64,000 bases of DNA from Chrysaora quinquecirrha. Its lineage: Eukaryota > Cnidaria > Scyphozoa > Semaeostomeae > Pelagiidae. Below the pieces are notes generated by a model. The model was not told the DNA's origin and did not search any database. It saw only the letters and a list, made by a program, of their open reading frames with translations. Below, in pieces: positions 258-63,783 of the stretch. Every line of letters starts with the position of its first letter. The stretch's first letter is position 1. The position numbers and the translations under genes are program-made. The stretch lies in NCBI GenBank assembly GCA_014526335.1, contig JACTAT010000021.1, positions 2,368,195 through 2,432,194 on the forward strand, written 5' to 3'.

Positions 258-34638
<34,381 letters not shown>

Positions 34639-41606: not shown

Positions 41607-44600
41607 TTGGACGAGAAGACAGAACAATATAATCTTCTAAGAGTTGAATATGAAGAGAAGAGAGCTGAATGTTTGAAGATACAAACTGAATTTCAAGAAT
41701 TGGAAGAAAGATTTTTTAAAACTGGTGTGAAATCTAAGGAAGAAATGGGCAGAGATCTAAGGGTAATTTCAAACTAGAATTAATCAGAGTAATATTACGG
41801 TTTCAACCTATTAAGCAAAGGTTTTGAATCAGATCCCAATCAGCGTAAGGACAAGTAGCTATTTCTCTAACTGGCTGGCTTCAAACAAGGTCTCGAAAAC
41901 TTCCTTCTGGAAGCATACCGTAAATCCTCAAATTATCCCCCTTCGTATTAGCTATCCCCTCAAATTAGCCCCCCTTCGAATTAGCTATCCCCTCAAATTA
42001 TCCCCCCTTCGTATTAGCTATCCCCTCAAATTAGCCCCCCTTCGAATTAGCTATCCCCTCAAATTATACCCCCTTCAGATTAGCTATCCTCAAATTATCC
42101 CCTTGAATTAGCTATCCTCAAATTATCCCCTTCAGATTAGCTATCCTCAAATTAGCCCCCTTCAATTAGCTATCCTCAAATTATCCCCCTTCAGATTAGC
42201 TATCTCCTCAAATTAGCCCCCTTGAATTAGCTATCCTCAAATTATCCCCCTTCAGATTAGCTATCCTCAAATTAGCCCCCTTCAATTAGCTATCCTCAAA
42301 TTATCCCCCTTCGAATTAGCTATCCTCAAATTATCCCCCTTCAATTAGCTATCCCATCAAATTATCCCCTTGAATTAGCTATCCTCAAATTATCCCCTTC
42401 AGATTAGCTATCCCTCAAATTATCCCCTTCAGTATTAGCTATCCTCAAATTATCCCCCTTCAATTAGCTATCCTCAAATTATCCCCTTCAGATTAGCTAT
42501 CCCTCAAATTATCCCCTTCAATTAGCTATCCTCAAATTATCCCCCTTCAATTAGCTATCCTCAAAATAGCCCCCTTCAGATTAGCTATCCTCAAACTATC
42601 CCCCTTCAATTAGCTATCCCTGAAATTATCCCCCTTCAATTAGCTATCCTCAAATTATCCCCTTCAGATTAGCTATCCTCAAATTATCCCCCTTCAGATT
42701 AGCTATCCTCAAATTATCCCCCTTCAATTAGCTATCCTCAAATTATCCCCCTTCAGATTAGCTATCCTCAAATTATCCCCTTCAATTAGCTATCCTCAAA
42801 TTATCCCCCTTCAATTAGCTATCCTCAAAATAGCCCCCTTCAGATTAGCTATCCTCAAACTATCCCCCTTCAATTAGCTATCCTGAAATTATCCCCCTTC
42901 AATTAGCTATCCTCAAATTATCCCCCTTCAATTAGCTATCCTCAAATTATCCCCCTTGAATTAGCTATCCTCAAATTATCCCCTTCAATTAGCTATCCTC
43001 AAATTATCCCCCTTCAATTAGCTATCCTCAAATTATCTCCCTTCAATTAGCTATCCTCAAATTATCCCCCTTCAGATTAGCTATCCTCAAATTAGCCCCC
43101 TTCGAATTAGCTATCCTCAAATTATCCCCTTCAGATTAGCTATCCTCAAATTAGCCCCCTTCGAATTAGCTATCCTCAAATTATCCCCCTTCAATTAGCT
43201 ATCCTCAAATTATCCCCTTCAATTAGCTATCCTCAAATTATCCCCCTTCAGATTAGCTATCCTCAAATTAGCCCCCTTCGAATTAGCTATCCTCAAATTA
43301 TCCCCCTTCGAATTAGCTATCCTCAAATTATCCCCCTTCAGATTAGCTATCCTCAAATTAGCCCCCTTCGAATTAGCTATCCTCAAATTATCCCCCTTCG
43401 TATTAGCTATCCTCAAATTATCCCCTTCAATTAGCTATCCTCAAATTATCCCCTTCGTATTAGCTATCCCTCAAATTAGCCCCTTCGAATTAGCTATCCT
43501 CAAATTATCCCCTTCAGATTAGCTATCCTCAAATTAGCCCCCTTCGAATTAGCTATCCTCAAATTATCCCCCTTCGAATTAGCTATCCTCAAATTATCCC
43601 CCTTCGAATTAGCCATCCTCAAATTATCCCCCTTCGTATTAGCTATCCTCAAATTATCCCCTTCGAATTAGCTATCCTCAAATTATCCCCCTTCGAATTA
43701 GCTATCCTCAAATTAGCCCCCTTCGTATTAGCTATCCTCAAATTATCCCCCTTCGAATTAGCTATCCCTGAAATTATCCCCCTTCGAATTAGCTATCCTC
43801 AAATTATCCCCGCTTCGAATTAGCTATCCTCAAATTATCCCCCTTCGAATTAGCTATCCTCAAATTATCCCCCTTCGAATTAGCTATCCTCAAATTATCC
43901 CCCTTCGAATTAGCTATCCTCAAATTATCCCCCTTCGAATTAGCTATCCTCAAATTATCCCCTTCGAATTAGCTATCCTCAAATTATCTCCCCTTCGAAT
44001 TAGCTATCCTCAAATTATCCCCTTCGTATTAGCTATCCTCAAATTATCCCCCTTCGAATTAGCTATCCTCAAATTATCCCCCTTCGAATTAGCTATCCTC
44101 AAATTATCCCCCTTCGAATTAGCTATCCTCAAATTATCCCCCTTCGTATTAGCTATCCTCAAATTATCCCCCTTCGTATTAGCTATCCTCAAATTATCCC
44201 CCTTCAAATTAGCTATCCTCAAATTATCCCCTTCGTATTAGCTATCCTCAAATTGTCCCCCTTCGTATTAGCTATCCCTCAAATTAGCCCCATCCTAGAG
44301 CGAGATATTGTTAATAAGCCCCCGTCGAATAAGCCCCACCCCTGACATGTTGGTGTCAGCCTTTTGAGTCCATATTTGTCCTTTATCGAGCTATGACAGA
44401 AATATGCATTCTCTAAGTCGATGATAAAACATGCTCTTGTGGATAATTTTATAAGCCCTTCGTTTAAGCCCCCACCTCAAATAAGCCCCCTCCAAAATAA
44501 TGAGAAATAACTAAGCCCCCAGGGGGGCTTATCCGAGGATTTGCGATACTACTGTTAGGTTGTCTTAGGTAGAATTTATGTGTAGTAGCTATTTGATGAA

Positions 44601-47600
44601 ACTTAGAACCTTTTTAATATCGCTGAAAGAGTATCGTGTTGAAAGATTAATAAAGCCTTTATAGGTGCCTTGTACTATTTAACCAAGCCTGGTTTCATTT
44701 TGGCATAACTTCAATGATTGAAACAGCTTACATTACACCATATTTTTTCTATTATCTTATTCACCTTTTAGGAGGAGATCAAACATTTGAAATACGAATG
44801 TCGCCAAAAGGAGATTGCAGCTGAACAAGACAGAGCTCTTAGAAATAAAGTAAGCTTGATGTGAGATATAATTACATAATTAATACCAAGAGGTAGCAAC
44901 CTCGGGTTGCATGTCTTGAAGTGCTTCTTGGCCATTTCTTGAAGCTCTTTAGCTCATTGGAATTATTGTCAACTCATTGACAATTACGTTTACAGTAAAT
45001 TCAAGTCCCATCATCCTTCCAAGTTCAATACCCTTAACTTGTGGTATATTATGCCACTTGGGTCCTCTACGAAAAATCGACCCCTGTGTTTCTCATACAA
45101 GAAAAATACACAATTTTAATAAATAGATCTACAATCAAGATTTCCAATTACTTTCTGCTCATTTTGTTTCGTAAGAGGACAAGATACCACCAAACGTACT
45201 AAAGGTAGGCAATAGGAAAGGGAAAGGCACTAGGAAAAGTGCGAAGTATTTATATGTCAGAAGGGTTAAGCCAATGGAAAGACGTTAAATTTCTCTTATT
45301 AAGGCAATGCCTATGAATATGATGGCAACTTCTACCTTCCCCCACACCAAACCGGGTTAGTTTAATCTCAGTTTAATCATCAAGTAGATATGAAAAAATT
45401 CACAAGCTGATTGCTTTCGTAGATATCAGATGATTGTGCAGCTCTTGTAAAAGAAAATGCAGCTCTGGCATCACAGACATTGGAATTGCAGAAGCAGCTT
45501 GACGCAGTGAGTTATTATCCACTCTTTTAACAACTAACCTATCTGCCTACTATTGTGGAAAGTTTATTTTGAGTTACTTTTGGTGGACACACAGTTATTA
45601 AAAGACTGTAAATCATTAACTACCTGAACAGATAATTTACTGCAGCAAAAACAAGAAAATTCTGGGTCTTTCGTCGTTTTAAATTTACCAGTCCTTGAGT
45701 TTTTTGAATATTTACGCTGTTCTAGTGTCTCATAAAGCTATGGCTAAACTGGGAAACACCGAGGGGACATCAATGTCGCGCGCAACATGTCTCTTAGCTT
45801 AGCAACGCCTTAAGATTCTTCCAAACAAATTTCTTATGGGGAATAAATATTTCTAATAGTAATTTCATATGCAAGTATAGTAGCCGTCAATTCTAAACAC
45901 TGCCTCCTGAAAATATATCTTTCCAAGTGTCTTATCTATGACCAAGAGGATTGAGTCCGGGGGGTAATCTAGACATCTAGCAACTAAGATAGAATATTTA
46001 TGATTTTATGATTTTCATAGGAAAGACATTTTCAAGACAACCAAGAAACACGAAGACATGCCAACATTCAAGAGTTAGTTGAATCAAAAGAAAAAGTCAA
46101 ATATCTTGACAGGGAGGTTGAGCATCTCAAAGATCAGCTAAGGATTGAGCGGCAGAAGCACAAGGATGCAATGGACAAGGTTTGTGACGTTCTTTGAGTT
46201 GAATTCTTTCGGTTGAAAGGATACCTTAAGGACAGCAGCTTTTTAACTTATTTAAACCAACTCGGTCCAGTTCAGTAGTCCTTCAGGGCCGTAATCATCT
46301 TTCTCAGGCCATTCTATAAGCATTTGCAGTGGTGCAGTTCCAACGGGAGAACTCTAATGCACGAACTTCCAAAACTTTTGCTTCCTAACTGCCTCTGAAA
46401 TTGATGGAAATAGCTTTCTCAATTTTCGTCACTTCCTCACTTTATGCCTAGTTGACGCAGCTTCTTTTTACCGAAAAGCATTGAAATGAAGTAAACTTAC
46501 TTCGTCTCCTTTCCTGGCACTTTTATTCAATTTTCCCTGACCTTGCATCATTAGTTTCTTAATTCTTGAGTCGTATTTGACAAACATCCGTCCACTGAAA
46601 AGATAAATGTTATAGAGAAGTGTAAATGTCAAATGTTATATGTTATAGCATATGGTTATAGACAAAGAGATGAACCCAGATAGCATAACGTTGTTTTCTG
46701 TTTCTTTCATCCTAATTATTTGCTTCCTTCTTAGCTTTTGAAAGAAGAACGAGGTCTAAGCAGAGGTAGCTACTTTTTAATCTATTTTCTAATTCTATTT
46801 ACGCAACGTCAAGTTAGTGGTACTCACAGTAAGACCCTGGCCAAACAATCAAACATTATTTGTCAAACATTTCAAATTTGCTTGTCAAGCAAAATGTTTG
46901 ACCGTTTGGCCATATCGTTAAATCTGCTTGTCAAATTTTCGCTTGCGTCGAAGGAAATTATTTTGAGGAAAATTTCAAAAATTTCTAATTTGCTTGTCAC
47001 GCAAAAGGTTTGACCGTTTGGTCATACCTTAAAATATTGCTTGTCAAACACTTTTTGCTTGCATCGACCAAAATGTTTTTGGACTATTTCCAAAACATAG
47101 CGCAACAAATTCAGCACATTTTTGCTTGTTATGCAAAGTTTTTAGCGTGGCCAAATGGTCAAAGATTGCTTGCAAAGCAAATCTTAAATGTTTCAGAAAC
47201 AATGTTTGTTCGTTCGGCCAGGGCCTCAATCGAAACATCGTTCCTTGCAATAAAACGCTTAAAAACATTGCAAAGTTCTGCTGTTTACTTTAATTAACAC
47301 ATACTTTTTTCTCTAGCGAATTTAAGAGGAACAAAATTGCAATCAGAAGTTGCAGAACTTGAACACTTGAATCTGAACCAAAATGAAGAGAACGTCAAAC
47401 TGAGAAGAGATAAGATGATTCTGGCTGATCATGTTGCCGACCTTCAAAACAAGGTATGTTCTTGTTTCAGACTTTAAATCCCCGGATATTTGCCCTCCTG
47501 GGAGGTTAGCTAGCTTACTTACCTAGGCAAATACGGGGGGTCCATACGCAAAAATCAATTCGCACCCAAAAATATCGGCTTTTTGGGCCGATGAACTAAG

Positions 47601-50260: not shown

Positions 50261-53200
50261 CTTGAAAGCAAACATTTTTCAGAAAATTAATAGAGAATCA
50301 ATTGAGGTATGGAATTGTAGATTATAGGCAGGTTCCCACGATATCGTAAGAGCTGGCACGGGGGGTTCTTGGCCAAATTTTGAGTAGGAGTGTGCCGCTA
50401 ACTTATTCAAAATGGTAACGTTGACTAAATTAATCTTTCCGAGAAACTTTTTCTCTTGGCTAGACTAATACGCGTGAAATTGTTGGCCCTTAGTCGGAAA
50501 ATTCAATTTTCGACTTGTTTCTTTTCCTCGTTTCTTCAAAAAATGGGTATGATGAAATTTTCACTTCCAAGGTTACAAAAACTGAAAACATGACAGTTCT
50601 CCATATCAATATTACAAAATTTGGTAGAAATGACAGACATGACAGACCAAGGAACGGAGGATCATTGAACATCGCAGACAAGCAGCATATGCAAACACTT
50701 TGTCGGCGATGACCGTAAAGACGGTCGCTGACTGTCTGTGATCAGATTGCGACCGATCGCAAACATAAAATCGTAAGTATGAATAGCCTGAAATTACGGG
50801 TAAACGAGTTGCCAACATACCTTTTTCACAAGGTTTTCGATTACATGCTTCATACTTCCTTGGTTTTCTTGGCAATATATGACCACAATCTGTATCTTTA
50901 GCTGCATCAGCGCCATTTTTAAACATGCACTTTACAGTTCGTTTTCTCAGGCCCTTATTTCCACACTTTGCAGAGCACTAAAACAGAAATATTGTTTGGT
51001 TTAGAAGGGCAAATAGAACCTAAAAAAGATTGATGTACCGCTGTTAAAAGTCGCTCTCTGGGCAAAATTCAGTGAAAATTCAGAAATCTATTCTTTTGCA
51101 ATAATATCTTGAAGCAAATTTTCAGGACATTTTTTGTTTAAGCAGAAGTTATCTCAGGCAGAAGTTATCTGATCTTATTAAAATAACCCTCTTCTACCCC
51201 TACTGTTGCCCCCCTTCAAGAAGGATGTTGTGTCTGCAGCAATTACAACGAAGTCATTTGGTGCTGCGTTCTAAATCTAAAGTTTCTAACGCTTGATGTA
51301 AAGGTCTGGCTAAACTAGGAGACATTTCGCGTGCAACATTGTCGCGCGTGACATTGATAACCCCTCGATGTCTCCCAGTTTGGCCACCTCGGCAACTTTG
51401 AAGAGCGAAAAAAATTTATAGCGATAGATATGCGAAAGTATGAAAGTATGTGTCTGAGAGAAAACAAAAACATTTCTAAATTCCGCGTTTCGGGGACATG
51501 TTGCTGGCTTGTCACTCGCATGTTATGGTCTAGCTACCCTCCGAGACACGCCAGACAAAATGTCGTGCGCGATATGCCCTTCTACTTTAGCCAGACGTTA
51601 CTAGTTTAGCCAGACGTTAATGAGCGGGATATATTGTCCTATCCTTACATCCCATCCGAGCGTTTTCAGCCGGTCAGGTTTTGGCCCTAACCATTAAAGG
51701 TAATAAAGGTTCGATACATACCTCTCCCCAAGGTCCGATTCCCCAAGAAGTTCCACATCTCTTAGTTCGACATTCTCGTATTTCTGCAGGGCGTTTCGAT
51801 GGATCACATTTGTCTAAAGAAACAGCTTTATTTCCATAAGACAAGCACTTGTTTTCAATGATATTCAAAGCTCTGAATGCACCAATACATTTTCCTTTGC
51901 AATCGTCTACTCCAGTTGAAATCCAGACACCGGTATCTAAAATCAACATAATCAGATAATTACAAAGTCGTAAAAGATTTACAACATATGGAATTATAAA
52001 TTATTTTTAATTTTATTATTTTATTATTTTATTTTATTTTTAATTATTTATGCACGGTAGCCCTGTCAATCCATCAGGATTGCTTTTAAGGGGGCCGTGC
52101 TACATGCTAATTACAATTTATTATCTTAAGAAATACGTGCTATTAACAACAATGAAACGTTAATTTTAAATACCAAGTTTACTTTTTAGGGTTTTCTTAA
52201 AAGTGGCAAGGGATGGGGCCTACTTTACTTGAATGTTAAGGTTATTCCATAGCTTAGATCCCCTAAAAGATACAGCCTTTTGCCCATTAAAGGTGATCAC
52301 AAACTAAACATAAATTGACGCAGCTATACTAGAAAGCTTAAGGGTGCGTTCTTTTGGAGCGAAGCAAGTGTGATTCAAAAAAAAATATTCTAATTTCAAA
52401 AAAATTGTACGTTGCTCATTCAGATTAGAGAAGAAAAACTACACAGTCGAAACATAACAATGCGACCAATTAAGCAAAACAAAAGCTAAGTCGAATCTAG
52501 CGCAAGTTAGCGTATGTGTTTGCACCATAAGTGGATGGGTTTGTAAAATCTGGGCCACTTATCCTGGTCCGTCCATAAGTTATGTAGCCCGCCCTCCCCC
52601 CCCCCCCTCCAAAGGAGTTGCTTGGAAGTTTGAAGACTAGCTAACGAACGATTCGCCATACAAAGAAACAGATAAAGAACTTAAAAATGGAATTAAGGAA
52701 ACATATAAAATTGCTTACATGGGGGTACTGGGGGGTCATGTATATGCAGTACCAATTTAGCATCGGATTTTCCAGCTTCGTTGAAACTTTTACATCTGAT
52801 CTCAAATTCACTTGTTTGAACTTTTTTAATTGTTAGAACTGATTCAACTCTACTGACTAATTTTTCACCAGAGTTGATGATTTCTTGTTTAACTGTCCAG
52901 AAAGTTTGGTCCGTTTTTTCCAGCAAAGGGTGCATATTCTTTTGCCATTCAATTTTGGTGATGGATAACCTTCCGCGATGCAGACCACTTTAATTTCTTC
53001 GTCTAGTAGAAAAATATTATTTACAAATTTCAATATTCATTAGAAATTCATTTTTAAAATTTTGCGTTATACACCGTACTGGTTCTGAAAGTGTTTTCAT
53101 TAGTTGAACGGTGGATTATACGAAAAAAACAAATTAGGCCTATTCGAGGGGGGCTTATTCGAGAATTTACGGTACTACTTGTCAAGGACTATTATTGTGA

Positions 53201-56200
53201 CCGGCCAAATGGTCAAGCATACCCAAGCATTGCTTCACAACCATATTTGAAATGTTTGACAAACAATGTTTGATCGTTTGGCAAGACAAATAGAACTTTC
53301 ACTAACCTTCTATAGCATGTAAAGCCATTTCTCTGTCTGCTCGAAGTACAGCATCAATGCCAGTTCTCATTGCATTCAGGTCATGCATTGATGGGCTAAT
53401 CATGACTGCTGGTTCTGTAAAAAAAAAATACAGACAATTTGTTTACGCACTTCGATGTGACTTAACTTAATTGAAATTCATAAATATCTGAACGACAATC
53501 AGCGGGCAAAAAGTCATGGCTTTCACTTCTTAATCAATCTAATAGACCGGTCAGTCCTTTATTACGATGGGTCGCTCTCTAATGCCCATCATATCAAGTT
53601 TTAAACCGTAGCTTCACGTGGACGCTTTGCTTGACATGGCGAAGGGACATGATAAAAAACTGTCGCCGCGACCGTAAAAACTAAGATGACGTCGCACGCG
53701 TAACCAGGAATAGATTTTCGAACGATATGTTCTTCGACCTAAGGAAACAATGGTCGCAAACCTTGATTTGGTTTAACTTTTCACAACTCGCTTGTCGCAA
53801 AGTCGCAAACACATGGCATTGTTTTCGCGCGTTTTCTGAATATTTTCGAGAATCCATTCTTCTTTCTGCGCTAGTTGATTATGGCAGCACCTTTGTCGCG
53901 CAAGTATTCGCGCATGTATTTACCTCAGGATTTCTTAAAACAGGATATTTTCAGGTGTGTCGCGTCGCCAGAACAGGTGAAAATCGCACGTGAAGCCGCA
54001 ACACTTTGCCTTACTGGTCGGTGCTCTGAGCTCTGAGCATCAAGCAATCCAATTCAATTAATCTATGTTAATGGTTGCTGCAGCATTTTTGCTACGAGTG
54101 GCATAAGACAACAGCAAAGAAGAGGCTGATAAAAGGGCTACAATGTGATCAAACAATAAAACAATCGTTTCTTACCAATAACAATGACTTCTGTGGTTGC
54201 TTTGTCTTGTCCAATTTCATTCTGAGCAATGCAAGTGTAATTGCCAGCATCTTTTGATGAGACGTCTTTTAATAGCAGTACACGGCTACTTTCAGCCTTG
54301 AATCAAACGAAAACATAAAATCCATTAGAAAAACTTTATCATCGTTAAAATTCTTCATTCAATAAATGTTTCAAAATGAAAAGCATATGAGAAGCCTTCA
54401 TTTCTTTAGACTTATTAACCTGAGTCCCAGTTATCGCTCACGAAACAGAGGCTAACACTGGAATGAGGTCGGTCAAATGAAACTTGTAATTTGTAATTGT
54501 AATTTGTAATTTGAGCGTCAAGCAGTTCAGTTCAATAACCATAACTACGATGCTAATAAGCCTATCAATTCTTACCAGTAAGCTGAAGTCGATTTCTCCG
54601 CCATTTTTCGTCCAAGAAATATCTGGCCGAGGGCTTCCGATGACGTCACAGACTACCATGACAACAGAGTGTTGTCTGACTCCTATTGATTGACCCATTT
54701 CAGCTTTGAGAGTCGAAGGTAGTATTCGCATGATTCGATCATTGGATTTTCGTATTTTTGGTTTTTCTGAAAGTAAGAGTTATTTTTGAGTTATACATAA
54801 CTTCAATGTTGCAACAAACAGCGGTAATATCATAGAGCACACTCAAAAGCTTTTTTCGTCTGACACAACAGACCGAAACAATAAACTAAGGCAGAATTTA
54901 TACCCCGATGCGGTGTGCCCTTCGATGTTTCTGCAGTTCATCGCAATTTCAAAAAAAAATCTTGTTACGGTACATCAGTGAAAAGTATGCTTATGGTTAG
55001 AAACTGGCAAAACTTCAGTTATAAGACGTTATGTTGTCATGTTTTCATAAGAGATGTGAAACATTTTAATGTGTAAGAGGTGTACAAAATTAAATGCATA
55101 CTAGGCTGTGTAAACTAAGCATTCATATTTGATCAACAAAGTTGATGCTGTTTTTGAAAGAGGGACTTTTCGCTTTAAATTCTCAGCAATCAAAGAAGAA
55201 AGAACGTGATCGTGCGTGCATGTGATGTCTGCTCAAATTTTCTAACGGTTCAAACGGTTTTAACGGTTAAAGTTTTGGTGGGAAAACGCTCGAAGCATCC
55301 CTCTCACATGTGGATTGCAAATTACTACTCTTCACATTAACGAACTCTATTCATATTGATAACAGACTCTCCAAGTTATACAACCAAAGGAAGATTAAAG
55401 CTTGAACTCAACAGAGTCTTGAGGCCAATTGCACTGAGTTTTGATTCCAATGCCTATGCAGCAAGCGATGTCAGAACGGCAGGGATGAGACGCTTTACTA
55501 TAAGCGACAAAAAGCAATATAAAAAGGCATTATGAAAGTCTTCATACCTCCGATTATAACTTTAACCGTTGCCATATTCTTTCCAGCGAGATTTTCTGCG
55601 ATGCAACGATAATTACCAGCATCTTTCTCAACAACATTTAGAATTGACAACTCATCGCCTTCTGCGAAATACTTCCGCCCATCAATGTGAATGCTTTCTC
55701 CTTCTTTGAACCATTGGATTCTTGGAAGTGGATTTCCTTGAACTGAGCATGTGATTGTGATGTTTTGATTCTTTGAGACGATGATTCTTTGTACTACACC
55801 AATGGCTGGTGCTTTTGCTCTTCTCATTGCGTTGAATCTCGATGAGGAAACTTGAGCAGACGGAGGCTCTGTGGAAGAATGACCTGAGTTTCAACAATAA
55901 ACAATAAAAGAAACAGCACAGTAACTAACGACTCTAAATCGATCTGGTTTAATTCTTACATTAGGTGGTCTGTATTTAACGGGTTCTGTTGTTGATGGGA
56001 TCTCAAGCAGATGCAACTGGCATATACAATGCCTAAGACCCTGGCCAAACGATCTAGCATTGTTGGTCAAACATCTTCGATTTTCTTGTTTAAGAAATCG
56101 TTTGGCCACATCACAAAACATGGCTCATCAAACACAGCTCATCAAGCAAATCTAAAATGTTGACCTACAATGTTTGATCGTTTGACAATGGCATAAGTGT

Positions 56201-59200
56201 GCAAAAGTTTATAGTTTAACATGGAAATTGTTGTTTTTTTGTGCACTTTTTAGGGTTGTTCGACATCGCGGTTCTCTATATAGAATCACTTATATAGGAA
56301 GATAGATTAATTGAGATAAACAGCGGAAATATCTCTGAACAAACTTAAAAGCTTTGTCGTCAGAAACAGATCGAACAATAAACTGAGGCGGAATTTATAC
56401 CCAGATGCGGATCGAAATGCACCAACCAGAAAGGGAAGCTAGATTGTTATTGTGTTTTGAACACCAATCAGCTCAAGGGATACAGCAAGATGACCAATAG
56501 AAATTAGTTGAAGAGTCCAAATGAGTAAAGAGAACTCTTCCTGTCTACACAGAACAAGAATCACTTATATAGGAATTCTAGAATGAATTATATTCAGCAT
56601 GCAAGCCTATTTCACTTGCTTGGTGACATGTCAATAAAAACTTGATGTAAAATGAAAAAACCGCCATACCAGCAACTTCAATTTTCAATGACTTCTCATC
56701 TTTTCCAGCTTTGTTTTCTGCCATGCAAACGTAAGTTCCCGCATCGCTTGATTCCACATTTTTTATCTGCAAATCACCTTCAGGAGTCAAGGTAACACGG
56801 GGGTCGATGTTGAAGAACGCATCTATTCGTCTCCATTTGATTTTCGGTGTTGGCGTACCACGAGCTGGACAGCTAACGATTAACTGAACCCCTGAAGGAC
56901 AGTAACAGACCCGCCGATTGAAGCATGAATGACCCTTGACGATGGTTCGATCGCTGTTTTGTTCTTTGTTTCGCCAATAATCGTTGGTGGATCTGTAAAA
57001 TAGAGTAATATTTAGAATATTTAGAGGTTTATATTAAGACAGATATTGTTATTTTCAGTCAGAAATCGCTAGCTGATTAACTAAGCAACGATATACCTAT
57101 GTAGAGCATTGTTTAATATTGGAAAAAACAGAAAGGCTATTGCTGGTCGCTTTTTCACTGGATCGCTTCGACGCTCAACTAGCCTGATAAACAGACAGTA
57201 GTTATCAGACTAACAACCAACATGCTGGGTAATAAACAGTCCTTGATAGCCCCCTTTCTAATATAAAACCTCCTCTTTACTTAGCCCTAATTTTGCCCCC
57301 ATCTTATATTAAGCCCCCTCTGCACTAAATTCTCATTTAAGCCCCTTTTCTAATATAAAGCTCCCTCTGTACTTAGCCCCCATTCAGCCCTCCACCTCAC
57401 ATTAAGCCCCCATTGCGCTAAAGCCTCATTTAAGCCTCATTTCTAATATAAAACCCCTCTGTATTTTTATCCCTCATTTAGCCTCTCCATCTTGTATTAA
57501 GCCCCATCTTCACTAAAGCCTCTTTTAAGCCCCTTTTATAATATAAAACCCCCTCTGTACTTAGCCCCCATTCAGCCCCCATCTTGTATCATGCCCCCTC
57601 TGCACTAAAGTCTCATTTAAGCCCCTTTCTAATAAGCCCCCTCTGTACAAAGGCCTAAATTTCTTAAAATCTCCAAAGTCGATTAAACCGCCTTAGGAGG
57701 CTTAAAACAGCTTCAGTGTAGTTGTAGCTATTATTGTCAAAATTCACAAAAAAACCTCACCTACAACAGCGATCTTGGAAGTAGCTTTATCAATTCCAAA
57801 TTTATTCCTTGCAATACACGTGAAAGTGCCATCATCTGATGGAGCAACAGATGGGATATCTAACAGTCCTTTGATGACTGATAAATAAGGAGAACCAGGC
57901 TCAAGGAGGATGCCATTTTTATACCAACTTATGTGTGGTGCAGGAATGCCTCGTGAGAAGCACTGCAGGACAACCTCAGCTGATGTCGATACGATAGCTT
58001 TGCCTCCAATTGGTACGGTCACTGAGTCTTGTTTGATTGCGGAGATGATCGTGTTTTTATTTGATGATGACTGAATAGCTGGTACCATGCCTAGAAAATA
58101 TTTTCATGTCTCATTACACTTCCTTCATAGGAATCTTAAGCCAGACGTATGTCGACATTGCGCACAGTCAGAACTAGTTGCCGACGGCTTATCAAGGAGG
58201 ATTTACATCTCTCCACTAAGACCTCCTTCTATTAAGCCCCCTCTCTCTCTCTTTTAAGAATAACACTTTATTAAGCCACCCATTTTAGCTCAGCTACCCG
58301 CTCTCTATTAGACCGTTGTCTCTCTGCTTGGCTTCCTTATTCCTAATTGGTAACGGAAGTATACTAGCACCACTGTAAATAATTGTAACAATTGGCGTTA
58401 AGAAGCCGTGTGACTGTTCTTCTCGAAACATGCATAGCGTCCGCTCCAAAGACCCCCTTCACACGTCAGTTATGGTTTGGTACCAGGTTAACTTTTCATA
58501 TACCCAATTTTGCCCCCATGCATTAGATACCCATATTTTGCCTATCAAAGACATGCAGTAGTTTCTAAACAGAGAGACAGTCTCTGTACACGCTGGGAAT
58601 AACTTGGGCAATTTGAATCTATAGTCACCACAACAGAAGCATTACTGTTCGGTGTATCAGTTCAGTGTCATGTATCGTCACAAACGTAATAGAAAATGTT
58701 CTTAATAACTGTTTCGAAGTTCGCTTGAAGGATCTAGCTCAATAGCCAGGGTATGTAAAGCTAATCAGTATCAACAACAATTACGCTAGTTAATTTCATA
58801 TCTAACTTACCAACATAAATAAACGTCGATGCTTCATCTTTGCCAAGAACATTTTCAGCACGACATGTGTATTTTCCGGAATGCTTCAACTTCAATTTAT
58901 TCAAAGTATACGAAGCAGTTCCACTGTCGGCAGCTAGCTTAGTCTCAGTCAGTAGATTACCATTGAAGAACCACGAGACTTTCGGGCTGGGTGTTCCACT
59001 GACTGGACATGTGATTGTCACAACTGTTCGACTTGGGGCATCCAAACGTCCACCTATTACTACTGATACTTCGTTGTTCCCCATGTAAGTTGTCACATTT
59101 TCTTTTACCATTGTAATTACAGGTTTCAATGATTCTGTCAAAATGAACAATAACAATAACAATGGACAATGAAGATTAACAATTACAATTAACAATGGTT

Positions 59201-62200
59201 AACAATTACATACAGATGGAACCTTCCAGTTCTATGCTGGCAGGCGTGGCTAATTTTGAGGTCAATTTCATTCAACACTTATTTTAAAAATATAAACGCC
59301 AGGTCGATCTCTTCATTGGCACTGAGGGTGGTCACTGCCAGAGGGTCTTTCACGTCCTCGATGGTTCTTTTAAGTCCCGATCAATTTTGAGAATGGCCCG
59401 TCACTTGACGTGAACATCCGAGTCACCGAGAGCAAGGGGTTTTTACAGCTTGTAATTTGTGCTCCTTACAATGAATTTCAATACGCGGACTTTAAGCGAA
59501 GATGGCGCAAGTACAATACACTACCCTCTGCCCTCTGCAAAAATGGCGCAAATGCTGGCCAGTACAATACACTGCCCTCTTACACTGCCCCATTAAACTG
59601 AGGAGACATTAATGGAGATGGGTAGGCTTATTTCAAATTTTCGGTTGCCAGGGGAGCTTAATAGAGAGGAAGGCGTGTTAGATAGAGAGGATGGGGTTGA
59701 GTTAACTTTTGAGTTTTGGGGTAGTTTTATTTCTAAGACTTTTGAAATGTAGACTCGGATGATAGGCCGATGTAATAAATGTACTGTGGAGGTCCAAATT
59801 AGTTTGCGGCATAGCCTAGGGACGAGGATGGCATTAGGACAGGGACAGAAGATCAGAAAACAAAGCAATACCTGCAACGGTAATCCTGGTGAGTGCATAA
59901 TCACTGCCAAATATATTCGATGCGATGCATTTATAAACCCCATTCGATATCTTCGTTACTTTCCGGATCTTCAATGTTCTGCCTTGATCCAACTCGATGA
60001 CATCACGTTGTTCTAGTTCATAGCCTCGTTCTCCTGACCATATTACAGTTGCAGCAGGTTCTGCTTTCAATGGGCATCGAATCACGACCTCAGCCCCCAT
60101 CAATACGACAACGTTTTTTCCTATTGTTACGTTTGCTTTCAAGGTCTGTGATAGATCTTCTAGGCCGGTTTCTTTGAAGATGATTGGCGACGTAGGGTCT
60201 AAAATGGAATTATTTAAACACTGCCGGTTCTCGTTGATTGTAGAATCAATAATAGGAACAACAATTGATTTTAGTCGATGACATAACAGAAGATAATACT
60301 CAGAATCTATAGATAAAAGCCCCCATGGGGAAGTATTCGAAGGCCTTATGAATTTTTTTGCCTATAATGCATCTTTTAACTATTTAATACATTGAAAAAG
60401 CTAGTGCTGACAGGTTTACTATCAATTCAACAAATAATCAGTCATTTGTTGTTGACAAGCAGCTGATTCTAATTATAGAATACACATAAAATATCTTGTT
60501 TCAGCTCTGTCTAGAACATACTGGAAGTACTGAACTTTGAAATCAGCCCCGCCCCCCCCCTCGAACAATACCCCACAAAAAAATTCACTCAGCATTAACG
60601 GTATATGGAAAGCAGGCTTAATACCAACTCACCAGTAACCGAAACGGTTAAATTTCTTGAATATCCGCCAGCAACATTAACGGCAAAACATTCGTACGTC
60701 CCTTGTATTCCACTTGTCAAATGAGGAAGAATCAGAGTTCCATTCTTTTCAACATTTGCAAAACTATCATCGTTCATAATCCGTTTGCCATTTCTCGACC
60801 AGAACACATGCGGAACTGGAAAACCAGCGACTGGACAATCAATATAAACTTCAGTTCCTGGGTATGCCGAGATGTTAGCTATCCCCACTGTTCCGTATAA
60901 ATAACCTTTTCCTTTAAGAATATTGTATCCATATGTAGGGGTAGACTTCTTTTCGATTATAGAAGGAGCCACAGGATCTAGAGAAAAAAGAAGATTACAA
61001 GAATATAAGGCGCTCTGTCTGGAAAGAAGCTCTACAGGAATCTTGCATTATAAAAACGTATCTAAGCCTCCCCCTCTATTAAACCAAGCACTCTCTTTAT
61101 TAAGCCACCCTGTCTCCAATGAGCGTCATCTCTCTACTAAGCCGCACCCTCTTTTTATAAAACGGACCACTCATTATTAAGTCATCTCTCTATTCAGCAG
61201 CACTCTCTCTATTAAGCCACCCTTTCAAAAAGCCACCCTCTCTTTATTCAGCCAGCCTTCTGTCTTTTAAGCCACCCTGTCTCCATTAAGTTACATCCTC
61301 GCTTTATGTAACTAAACTTTCACTACTAAGCCTACACCTCTATTAAGAAGCAACCATTAAATATCTCTCTTTTCGGCAAGCCATTCTCTCTTTATAAAGC
61401 CACCTTCTCTTCAATAAGCTACCATTTTGTCCTCTCTTCATCAATATAAAAAGAGTAGATAAATGTCTATAAGGGAGCATAAACGAAAGAGGGTGCAACT
61501 TAATAGAAAGAGGGTGCAGTTTAATAGAAAGAGGGTGCAACTTAATAGAAAGAGGGTGGCTTAATAAGGAGACGTTGGCTAAAGAACGCTGACCTCTCTC
61601 TCCATTAAGCCATGCGCTACCAGTTTAGGAATAGATCCATATTTATTCGTTCTTCCACGCGATCCATAAAATAATATCAAGATATTAAAAGCCTTTTTTC
61701 AAATAAAGCATAAGGTTTGTTGATAGCTCAAAAACAGCATTTCAGAGAAAAAGTTGCTTTTTGTCGATCTATTGCTCTATATCCTCCAGCAAGAGAATCA
61801 ACAAATAAACAAGTAAAATAAACAAGCAAAATACTGTACTTACCAAGAAGCTGTAAATTTGTTGTTAAATTATAAGACCCAGCTGAATTTTTAGCCACAC
61901 ATTGGTATTCTCCATTCGTTTGTTTTGTTGTTATCTTTATAGTAAGGATTCCATTTTCAGCATCAAATTCAAACGTATCATCATTTTCAATTATTTTGCC
62001 ATTTTTCATGAAAACAACGTTGGGCTTCGGCACCCCAATGGCTGGACATCTATGAGAGAAGACAAAAAAACATTTGAGCTCCAGTCCAGATGGCGTCAAA
62101 AAACCCTGATCTGTGCTAAGGCTGATGAAACACGAAAGTCACATGGGATGAGAGCCTTGCGTTGTATGACTTGGATAGTTTGATCATCAATTTCATTTAA

Positions 62201-63783
62201 CTCATAGCTCAGTGGAAACATTAGAAATGACATCAGCTCTCTAACAAGCCTAGAGTCAAGCGTTGAAAATGGCTATGGACCCTTTCAAAGAGGTCTGGAA
62301 CGGCGCAACGTCTGGGTCGGTTGCAATCCCACTTGTAACATTAGGAAAAGATTCCCTTACTCAAGATGTCCGTCATCTTCCAGAAAATGTCTTGTCGACC
62401 CAGATCTCTTTGGGAAGGCCTATTGTGGGAAATTATAAGACATTTACGTACTTGATGGAAACCTCGGTTCCAGTAAGAGTCTTGAGATCATCTCCAATGT
62501 CAATAGCAACAGATCCTTTACCAGAAACAGATGAAATAACTTCAGTTTTCGCTCCTTTCGTCGGATCTCTCTGAATCAAAGGCTTCTGTTGTTCTGAAAA
62601 CAAGAAACATTTATCAAATTCTGAGATGCATTATATACAAGAAGAGCAATGCTTTCATAATGCATGAAGTTTTGTAAGGAACAATGTAGAAGGCTGTGAT
62701 TTTCTCTCATTAAATGGGGCTATTGAGGCCACTAGGGGTGCTGAACCCCCCCAGTGTCCCAAATATCTATACCTTTATCTTGAGTCTATCTCAGGACAAG
62801 GGATAGGAACGGCCATCGTCATTTGCATAAACGTCTATTAAAGAATTATGGGTGGCTTGCTTGAAGTTTGCAAACAACTTCTATAAAAGCAACTGGACAG
62901 CTAAATGAAAACAAATTACAAATTTCGACTCACTCATGACTTTAACTTTACTGCTCATCGTCTGCGTACCAAACACATTTACAGCTTTACAAATATATTC
63001 CCCACTATCAACATCATTTGCATCGTCAAATTGAAGCGTCTCGACATTTCTCGCAATGATTTCGCCATTTTTCAGCCAAATTATATCCGGTTTTGGATCA
63101 CCAGAAACTGGGCATTTTAACACCAATTTCATACCAGCCAGAATGCTGTAGTTCTGTCCAATGTTTCCTACTTTGTTTTCTTCTGTTATTATGGTTGGTT
63201 TCGGTTTAATTTGTTTAAAGATTCGTTCGCTTGTGTCTATCTTGATAGCTGCGCTACTCGGCTCTGAAACAAAAAACAAACTTATCAAATTTCGTAAAAC
63301 CTTGAGGGGTTGAAGGTAGAGCCGTCGAGACGGAGAGCGGGGCCCGGGGTAATGTAATTGTACGAGACCTTTAGGATTTTATGGAAAATTTTATGGAAAT
63401 ATCCCGGGGAAAACTTCTCGAATTTAGAAGATTTACAACAAATGTTATAACTTACTGTAAACTTGGACCATAATGCTTTGCTTAGCTTTCTGTCCAACAC
63501 CGTTAGATGCAGAACACATGTAAGACCCAGCGTCTTCCATGGTAACATAGGGCAACCGTAGTATACTTCCAGTTCCTTTGATAATTACATTGTCTGTTTC
63601 AGTCAGTTTTCTAGTGTTTCGAAACCATGTTATTTCAGGCACAGGTATCCCAGTGTAAGGACATTTGATGTCCAGTTGACTGCCCATTTTCACTTTGATT
63701 TTTCCTCCAATGTCGACACGGAACTTTGTGATCGGTTGAAAGTTTATTATTGTTGGTTGCTGTTATTGAAGGTTTGATTGGGT
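50139..63783 (-). CDS. ADAMTS-like matrix protein: Ig array, TSP1 x2, PLAC (3' part)
   Basis: Secreted extracellular-matrix protein, 5' part beyond the right edge. Sixteen exons: 63456-63783, 62934-63263, 62452-62593, 61844-62049, 60633-60977, 59872-60198, 58811-59134, 57761-58090, 56670-56992, 55548-55868, 54576-54766, 54176-54296, 53307-53414, 52719-53002, then 51722-51936, 50821-50977 and the terminal exon 50139-50260 (17 counting the last). Order is eleven I-set Ig modules, a cysteine-free linker, two ADAMTS-type TSP1 repeats and a PLAC domain. Vertebrate ADAMTSL1/ADAMTSL3 share the Ig-TSP1-PLAC order but carry few Ig domains; papilin ends Ig-PLAC. Hemicentin is less likely because PLAC is absent there. 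Two Ig exons are one base short, and the first has a frame conflict; a catalytic domain is not visible. Confidence 0.9.
50821..51936 (-). CDS. Two ADAMTS-type TSP1 repeats
   Basis: Exons 51722-51936 and 50821-50977. The first repeat begins TGVWISTGVDDCKGKC and closes RPAEIRECRTKRC; the second begins WGIGPWGECSAKCG, with GLRKRTVKC and a closing YEACNRKPC. The WG-x-GPWG-x-C-S-x-x-CG pattern is that of ADAMTS and ADAMTS-like TSP1 repeats, which bind matrix and can be O-fucosylated. The first repeat is divergent: the usual WS-x-C-S start is replaced by a cysteine pair spaced CKGKC. Domain boundary and exon boundary coincide at GE|CS. Confidence 0.88.
51304..51607. mobile_element. Family B palindromic element
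   Basis: GGCTAAACTAGGAGACATTT at left; ACTTTAGCCAGACGTTA twice at right, suggesting a terminal duplication. Confidence 0.65.
52000..52310 (-). pseudogene. LINE C-terminus with (AATAAA-like) tail
   Basis: Minus strand reads FNGQKAVSFRGSKLWNNLNI, a stop, then APSLATFKKTLKSKLGI, the standard C-terminal pattern, followed by a run of TAAAATAAAATAAT units as 3' tail. In an intron between Ig11 and TSP1-1. Confidence 0.78.
52719..63783 (-). CDS. Array of eleven I-set Ig modules (mostly one per phase 1-1 exon)
   Basis: Each module shows the Cys-x(10-14)-Trp core and the D-x-G-x-Y-x-C end of I-set domains, for example CPVSGDPKPDIIWLKNG with DVDSGEYICKAVNVFG, and CPVSGTPSPKVSWFFNG with KHSGKYTCRAENVLG. 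Linkers begin with a repeated E/D-P motif and a variable GG-x(n) loop before the first Cys. Eight modules are single symmetrical phase 1-1 exons of 321-345 nt, the exon class that duplicates without breaking frame. Ig3 (62452-62593 plus 61844-62049) and Ig10 (54576-54766 plus 54176-54296) are split by an intron, at different places. Ig8 (323 nt) and Ig11 (284 nt) are each one base short of frame. Confidence 0.92.
53112..53178. mobile_element. Family C-like terminus
   Basis: Minus strand TACCGTAAATTCTCGAATAA followed by GCCCCCCTCGAATAGG: the intact form of the sequence that seeded the 41.9-44.5 kb satellite. Confidence 0.6.
53195..53285. mobile_element. Family A element, minimal form
   Basis: GACCGGCCAAATGGTCAAGC faces AATGTTTGATCGTTTGGCAA over 90 bp. 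Confidence 0.6.
53620..54005. mobile_element. Family E element, uninterrupted
   Basis: GTCGCCGCGACCGTAAAAAC to GCACGTGAAGCCGCAAC; dense in CGCG and GTCGC words and in contrast to the AT-rich surroundings. Confidence 0.65.
54808..54962. mobile_element. Family D MITE
   Basis: Starts ACAAACAGCGGTAATA and ends GCAGTTCATCGCAATTTCA; body ATAAACTAAGGCAGAATTTA is shared with 56310. Confidence 0.6.
55320..55440 (-). mobile_element. SINE family 2 fragment
   Basis: Keeps the CTCTCCAAGTTATACAACCA block only. Confidence 0.45.
56036..56192. mobile_element. Family A element, short form
   Basis: CCCTGGCCAAACGATCTAGC faces ACAATGTTTGATCGTTTGAC. Confidence 0.6.
56310..56580. mobile_element. Family D element, uninterrupted body
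   Basis: GATAAACAGCGGAAATATCT then ATAAACTGAGGCGGAATTTA, CCAGATGCGGATCGAAATGC and GTGTTTTGAACACCAATCAG. Serves as the empty-site reference for the transposon at 12759. Confidence 0.65.
57230..57660. repeat. TAAGCCCCCTCT minisatellite, ~92-bp units
   Basis: Roughly four higher-order units, each of several TTAAGCCCC-TCTNTA subunits (for example TTAAGCCCCCTCTGCACTAA). In an intron between Ig7 and Ig8. Confidence 0.85.
59228..59470 (+). repeat. Interspersed repeat, GGTGGTCACTGCCAGAGGG type
   Basis: Second copy of the 7803-8035 repeat, including GGCAGGCGTGGCTAATTTTG and CAGCTTGTAATTTGTGCTCC. Confidence 0.6.
61050..61570. repeat. TTAAGCCACCCTCTC minisatellite
   Basis: About 20-bp units CTCTTTATTAAGCCACCCT, partly inverted at 61440-61565 (AAGAGGGTGCAACTTAATAG). 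In the intron between Ig3 and Ig4; a short related patch is at 58200-58320. Confidence 0.82.
62120..62290 (+). mobile_element. SINE family 2
   Basis: Plus-orientation copy with TTGTATGACTTGGATAG and CATAGCTCAGTGGAAAC, in the intron that splits Ig module 3. Confidence 0.55.

Follow-up and report, generated by a model that had tools for sequence, protein, structure and literature searches.

A 30-bp tandem array in an intron of Chrysaora quinquecirrha very probably grew from the arm modules of a MITE

How does a long tandem array come to lie between the two ends of a short inverted-repeat element? The question is raised by a locus in Chrysaora quinquecirrha, within a 64,000-nucleotide stretch of contig JACTAT010000021.1 (positions 2,368,195 to 2,432,194; hereafter the window). 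An earlier note on this sequence had read an array of 30-bp units as an internal expansion of one MITE, a reading supported here by copies of graded module number, by the register of the array edges and by matches to the element's body in 40 other rows of the genome. The note took the locus as a direct view of the step from transposon to satellite. The kind of step that the locus shows has already been described in other animals.

Results

The array lies within one TA-ended element that fills most of an intron

End patterns and the limits of matching genome rows place a whole MITE copy at 41916-44548 on the forward strand, 2,633 bp in length with TA at both ends. The span first proposed, 41926-44552, was right in describing one inverted-repeat element but missed its true limits; likewise, TA dinucleotides do flank it, not at 41924-41927 and 44550-44553 but at 41916-41917 and 44547-44548. 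The left end TACCGTAAATCCTCAAATTATCCCCC runs from 41916 and the right end TATCGCAAATCCTCGGATAAGCCCCC from 44548 on the other strand, so that the two are inverted and face outward. The left terminal inverted repeat (41916-41941, forward strand; end pattern, alignments and genome rows) includes the first module of the array, and its right counterpart occupies 44523-44548 on the reverse strand (end pattern, alignments and body rows). A 25-base end pattern allowing at most 3 mismatches occurred three times in the window against 0.00 expected, which upholds the proposal that the array edges are the two inverted ends of one element; together with the genome copies, this expectation rules out a chance pairing of ends. 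Only the outer 26-28 bp of the element pair as an inverted repeat, the array and body modules sharing one orientation, and the long, internally repetitive inverted repeats on both arms that mark a foldback element are absent from the window copy.

The third match to the end pattern lies at 53149-53174 on the reverse strand (end pattern, alignments and profile search). An intact end had been reported at 53112-53178, and the end at 53174 does match both element ends (41916 and 44548), but it is apparently solo: a profile built from the ends in the window itself detected no opposing partner upstream of it between 53174 and 41916. In the genome, the other seven rows matching this region span just query bases 16-65. 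Beyond this animal, a match to the end pattern in a Heimdallarchaeota contig was judged to be chance because it is not followed by the C-run seen after other ends, and no match came from viral contigs scanned with the unit and with the end, from phages or from a text search of the end sequence.

The entire element is enclosed by a GT...AG intron of a coiled-coil gene (41763-44771, forward strand; sequence and exon translations), of which it makes up about seven eighths (2,633 of 3,009 bp). When the exons are joined across 41763-44771, their translation aligns gap-free to protein P0035 with 92% identity over 106 amino acids. Other matches of the gene reach 75% (a EukProt protein), 48% (Xenia), 43% (Stylophora) and 41% (Nematostella), and judged by these its closest named relatives are cnidarian. 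Elsewhere in the window, exons on the reverse strand at 50612-63762 encode Ig I-set and thrombospondin type 1 domains and belong to a gene that we take to be hemicentin-like. A search with the Ig gene yielded matches of just 21-27%.

Paired modules make up the array, which stops short of an ordinary body

TRF reported a 30-bp period with 79.6 copies at 41924-44291 (forward strand), which unit parsing resolved into 79 units of 28-33 bp plus 19 bp, with 33 distinct sequences among the 79. Each unit consists of two half-units of about 15 bp, such as CTCAAATTATCCCCC and TTCGAATTAGCTATC, and 159 such modules were counted at up to 3 mismatches. The earlier note had the array reach the right end of the element; it stops at 44291 and is followed by 257 bp of ordinary body. 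The unit had also been called a variant of the sequence just inside the end, to which it is indeed related, but the array starts at base 9 within the left terminal repeat. Four 33-bp units stand at the left edge (41953-42084, forward strand), a length near the distance between modules 1 and 3 of ordinary copies, and the last, partial unit of 19 bp (44273-44291, forward strand) occupies the position of module 3, as judged by comparing the right edge with four copies and further arms.

Along the array, the same unit types return 3, 6, 7 and 9 units apart more often than in 1000 shuffled orders (p = 0.015, 0, 0.001 and 0; 15 lags tested), and the longest run repeated exactly is 3 units, which makes for modest evidence of blocks. 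This recurrence is compatible with block-wise slippage and with unequal exchange alike, separating neither from the other.

How closely the unit resembles the element ends was gauged against shuffled sequences. Its score against the whole 53174 end was reached in 6 of 500 shuffles (18 of 500 for the inner part) and its score against the right end in 96 of 500 (347 of 500 for the inner part); the alignment of unit to right end is thus not significant as evidence by itself. Taken from the window sequence alone, the likeness of unit and end would be weak, and it was the genome-wide copies that settled it.

The body at 44292-44548 (forward strand) comprises spacer, modules, core and right end, and matches 40 other genome rows at 82-92% identity. 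Its modules lie near 44308 (weak, 5 mismatches) and at 44323, then, after the core, at 44458 and 44475. A diverged two-module stretch at 44449-44490 (forward strand) resembles the array unit: its score against a 33-bp unit was reached in 1 of 1000 shuffles. For the 30-bp unit, the best stretch of the body was 44456-44499, with a score reached in 8 of 1000.

Ordinary copies are short and dispersed

We searched the animal's own genome (328 Mb, 740 contigs) with the 257-bp body plus 12 bp of flank. As 40 of 491 first-look candidates were scored, the counts are lower bounds: at least 41 rows including the window, two of the rows belonging to one element, L051. The element thus has the many dispersed copies of a MITE. 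Of the 40 other rows, 33 have their last matching base between query bases 249 and 261, and in 16 it is base 257, which corresponds to 44548. The left edge as query yielded 59 rows, of which 21 fall in the window array and 38 outside it; 34 of these 38 start at query bases 13-18 (41912-41917). The match spans at most bases 13-86, enough for the end and about two units, in 31 of the 38, and extends beyond base 86 in the remaining 7, which lie at four loci.

We fetched 60 genome stretches, which together with the window hold 58 body rows, 57 of them outside the window. Ordinary copies have the short length of a MITE, with 29 of 39 rows with both ends measuring 302-337 bp and the rest 261-532 bp; the window copy, at 2,633 bp, is not short and was left out of these counts (its automatic left end was an inner module, giving 2353). 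After 6 repeats had been dropped from 40 flank pairs, 34 distinct pairs remained, that of the window among them, and 26 of these have TA at both ends of the element. Beyond the TA, flanks matched at 0.35 for one base (control 0.29) and 0.38 for two (control 0.28), and matches of 3-10 bases were not above control in the 34 pairs. The TA pattern fits a target duplication or the end of the terminal repeat; either may account for it. In L051 (2938-3413), the body itself is partly duplicated in tandem, a second mode of growth between the same ends.

Copies between the same ends carry graded numbers of modules

The earlier note had proposed looking for copies with other unit numbers between the same ends, and these exist. 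Of the 57 rows outside the window, 46 have a left end and the inner anchor; the other 11 have no detected left end, and 8 of them show two or three modules before the body by eye. Modules before the usual spacer, counted at up to 3 mismatches in 40 rows, number two in 5, three in 31 and four in 4. Some of these rows depend on one another: L051 enters the count twice, L019, L020 and L063 have the same 10 bases of left flank, and L017 and L018 represent a single duplicated locus (left flank 93.3%). By eye, L049 and L057, counted as two, have a decayed third module, and the fourth module of L023 comes from a repeated spacer segment; L046 carries an insert in its arm. Arms with clearly two modules are found in L034 and L038, and with clearly four in L014 and L017/L018. 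In an extra set of 12 loci, L012 among them, from which L026 (a false end) and L072 (no row) were left out of the counts, three modules precede the spacer in 8; the spacer is missing from L074 and L076, which seem to represent a different subfamily.

Longer series occur as well. L010, one of 6 rows without the usual spacer, has 14 modules and both ends (the right end with 3 mismatches in 14), and L011 has 38 modules and a left end, with no right end found in the fetched stretch. L013, built of double units of 35 bp, belongs to a relative family.

Both edges of the array keep the register of an ordinary arm

In ordinary copies, ACCCTAGAGCGAGAAATTGTTAATAAG follows the third module; in the window, compared with four ordinary copies, ATCCTAGAGCGAGATATTGTTAATAAG follows the last, 19-bp unit. 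The array thus begins in module 1 and ends at the position of module 3. That the last unit meets the normal spacer just as a third module does argues for growth in place, and the array most likely expanded between modules that were already there. The distance between modules 1 and 3 runs from 26 to 38 bp over 29 arms; it is 31-32 bp in 18 of them and exactly 33 bp in a single one. Attempts to assign half-units to particular ancestral modules failed, as each half-unit matches modules 1, 2 and 3 about equally (9, 9 and 10 of 12 bases).

Related arrays occur at other places, with periods of their own

A second 30-bp array was not found elsewhere in the genome by the left-edge search (36 of 36 candidates scored, very common words skipped). 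Within that search, the array lacks what strictly defines a satellite, namely a unit that forms long arrays at numerous places or in heterochromatic blocks. The label 'satellite' given to it was therefore overstated; as far as the left-edge search shows, it is a minisatellite at a single place.

Searching with the L010 array gave at least 87 rows (40 of 368 candidates scored), from which 16 places were fetched, two of them at their edges only. Runs of at least 8 related modules stand at 19 places including the window, L010, L011 and L013; L097 has 6. The figure of 19 is a census of matches and not a rate, because the module list was widened after arrays had been seen and places were picked for their array match. 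For control, the longest module runs were measured in 60 one-kb window pieces lying clear of the element, where they were 0-4, and in 20 shuffles of each of 21 fetched loci, where none exceeded 2.

At least one element end (a 14-base match, up to 3 mismatches) accompanies 13 of the 19 arrays. Both ends are present at four places (the window, L010, L013 and L089) and one end at nine (L011, the C257 array, L086, L088, L090, L091, L092 with 3 mismatches, L094 and L095), the L094 stretch ending inside its array. No end was found in the fetched stretch at the remaining six, the C116 array, L084, L085, L087, L093 and L096, of which the L096 stretch begins inside its array and leaves the left side uncovered. 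Arrays are thus not always separate from the element, the outcome that the earlier note had set against its own reading, but these six places mean that they are not always seen inside it either.

Best TRF periods are 69 or 28 in L010, 17 in L011, L086, L087 and L089, 34 in L090, 35 in L013, 16 in L084, L088 and L091, and 302 or 201 in L094. Since periods differ between places, the other arrays would have arisen independently. L086, L088 and L091 belong to a sister family with CTCTAATAAGCCCC modules and a right end resembling TTTTACGGTA. In C116 (245450-249900; L082/L083), we observed an array of about 3.8 kb made of TCTCGAATAAGCGCC-type modules with no visible element ends, flanked by what look like two copies of one flanking sequence.

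Two pairs of loci are duplicates of one insertion that differ in length. L085 and L087 share their left flank at 99.3% over 286 bp and their right at 89.9% over 346 bp, with TRF arrays of 249 and 721 bp. In L025 and L028, which share flanks at 97.7% over 684 bp (left) and 89.9% over 735 bp (right), the elements measure 313 and 264 bp and the difference spans module to module. Both pairs are compatible with growth or with loss.

A sister MITE of 438 bp at 32616-33053 of the window has ends TATCGTATTTCCTCAAATAAGCACCC and TACCGTATTTTCTCGATTAAGCACCT and a similar right-end layout, and related ends lie at 4432-4457 (reverse strand) and around 7445. A different inverted-repeat element at 27110-27470, with arms of 29 bp that are 97% complementary and contain GTCAACTCGCCCC-type modules, appears from its sequence to be another family with modular arms. 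Modules of TTAAGCCACCC type with inverted arms lie at 61092-61572, including a 21-bp array at 61485-61558, and a 92-bp array of 4.4 copies at 57248-57648 is rich in AAGCCCC motifs. By eye, three MITEs hold a similar dispersed segment (L024 ~1110-1280, flipped; L092 ~620-790, flipped; window ~32750-32910), which in L092 has the inverse orientation and is perhaps a SINE.

Discussion

We consider it very likely that the array at 41924-44291 consists of multiplied modules from the left arm of a MITE that is non-autonomous, flanked by TA and normally about 320 bp long, and that these modules expanded by misalignment while the ends and body of the element were kept. We see directly the element ends, TA on both sides, the ancestral register at both array edges, a graded series of copies and differences in module number between duplicated insertions. 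The array has the marks of a MITE-derived one, in that its unit comes from the element and copies with few units lie between the same ends. The starting point would be an ordinary copy, whose left end usually bears three 15-17-bp modules of similar sequence in the same orientation, with module 1 falling within the terminal inverted repeat. With such modules, the DNA could pair with itself out of register by one or two of them, presumably by slippage during replication, by unequal exchange or in the course of repair synthesis. In the window copy, misalignment would have multiplied a two-module interval of about 30-33 bp until the arm reached 159 modules, while the ends and the body stayed in position, and similar growth would have occurred at other copies and in sister families. 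We infer that growth followed insertion and that a Tc1/mariner-type transposase mobilised the element.

Could the MITE instead have taken up an existing satellite, by carrying or inserting into an unrelated 30-bp array, or do two MITEs bracket one? A capture model is proposed for miDNA4 of Xenopus in excerpts of PMC12628747, and the 6 of 19 array places without an element end in the fetched stretch are in keeping with it. Here, however, the unit begins inside the terminal repeat, ordinary copies already contain a few modules, and the left-edge search (36 candidates scored, very common words skipped) found no other 30-bp array; the ancestral register at both edges strains the idea further, and we regard capture as very unlikely. 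Growth in an element elsewhere, followed by a move of the enlarged copy to this intron, is improbable: with both ends and TA present the enlarged copy is mobile in principle, yet no other copy with a 30-bp array was found by the left-edge search, very common words being skipped. Nor do we give much credence at all to an assembly or sequencing artefact that would put the length of the array and its one-base unit variants down to errors in the reads. The variants do differ mostly in C-run length and by one-base deletions, but they cluster regionally and recur at fixed lags, and related arrays stand at many other places.

Selection on transposition offers a different account, one that we think possible but doubtful. 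Modules would be retained and multiplied as transposase binding sites, more modules would give better transposition, and the long array would be a runaway case. Such a role is proposed for Galileo and Tetris (PMC4079207, in part), module 1 overlaps the terminal repeat, and arms with three modules are the most frequent (31 of 40 rows). The binding sites are putative, and the long array has no daughters in the left-edge search. Multiplication of arm modules by misalignment within the element is our preferred reading.

Arrays of this kind have precedents. Growth of tandem repeats within MITEs and later loss of the ends is described in excerpts of PMC12628747, and arrays derived from terminal inverted repeats, Xstir and Tetris included, are catalogued in PMC9659126 (excerpts). 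Xenopus has in Xstir/Xmix (Hikosaka and Kawahara 2004) a MITE that occurs alongside a tandem array and a composite of the two (PMC12628747, PMC9659126), and the unit, like that in the window, comes from the MITE itself, from internal sequence according to the former source and from the terminal inverted repeat according to the latter. The window element differs in host and sequence, and its array edges, a starting arm of three modules and a number series can be seen in copies of one genome. Tetris, a foldback transposon of Drosophila virilis, resembles the window element in that tandem repeats within its terminal repeats expand; as given in portions of PMC4079207, these repeats share 37 bp with the outermost part, arrays reach 66 copies and one allele pair has 3 and 4 repeats. 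Tetris has a repeat of about 220 bp and long terminal repeats, whereas the window element has 15-bp modules, an array in one arm only, short terminal repeats and TA ends.

For miDNA4 of Xenopus tropicalis (Scalvenzi and Pollet 2014), a Tc1/mariner MITE whose internal repeat varies in copy number, the longer arrays may finally become a satellite without ends (PMC12628747, PMC9659126, both in excerpt); where capture of an existing tandem repeat is proposed for it (PMC12628747), the window unit instead overlaps the terminal repeat. The BrickBuilt MITE of Porphyromonas gingivalis likewise places a minisatellite (23-bp) between parts with short inverted ends, according to excerpts of PMC4596501; it is bacterial, has 19 copies in one strain and is likened here by layout, not by sequence.

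Foldback of Drosophila and the TU elements of sea urchin have internally repetitive terminal repeats and long inverted arms. Galileo has the same layout (PMC3573991). In contrast to all three, the array and body modules of the window element run in one direction and only its outer 26-28 bp are inverted. Titles and abstract openings on MITEs, satellite DNA and Cnidaria (corals included) gave no cnidarian example of a MITE-born array. The kind of process is already known in other animals; the present case is new as far as the literature was searched.

The steps in the birth of arrays from MITEs are usually assembled across species or alleles. Here one genome holds copies with 2, 3, 4, 14, 38 and 159 modules. 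It also holds arrays in which both ends, one end or neither can be seen, and duplicated insertions whose module numbers differ. The rate, direction and mechanism of array birth thereby become measurable from one assembly. We lean slightly towards a broader view, in which this MITE superfamily acts as a standing generator of minisatellites: with several copies of a short module maintained beside its end, every insertion would be a potential nucleus, arrays with private periods would be born repeatedly at many loci, and some would lose their ends and become free.
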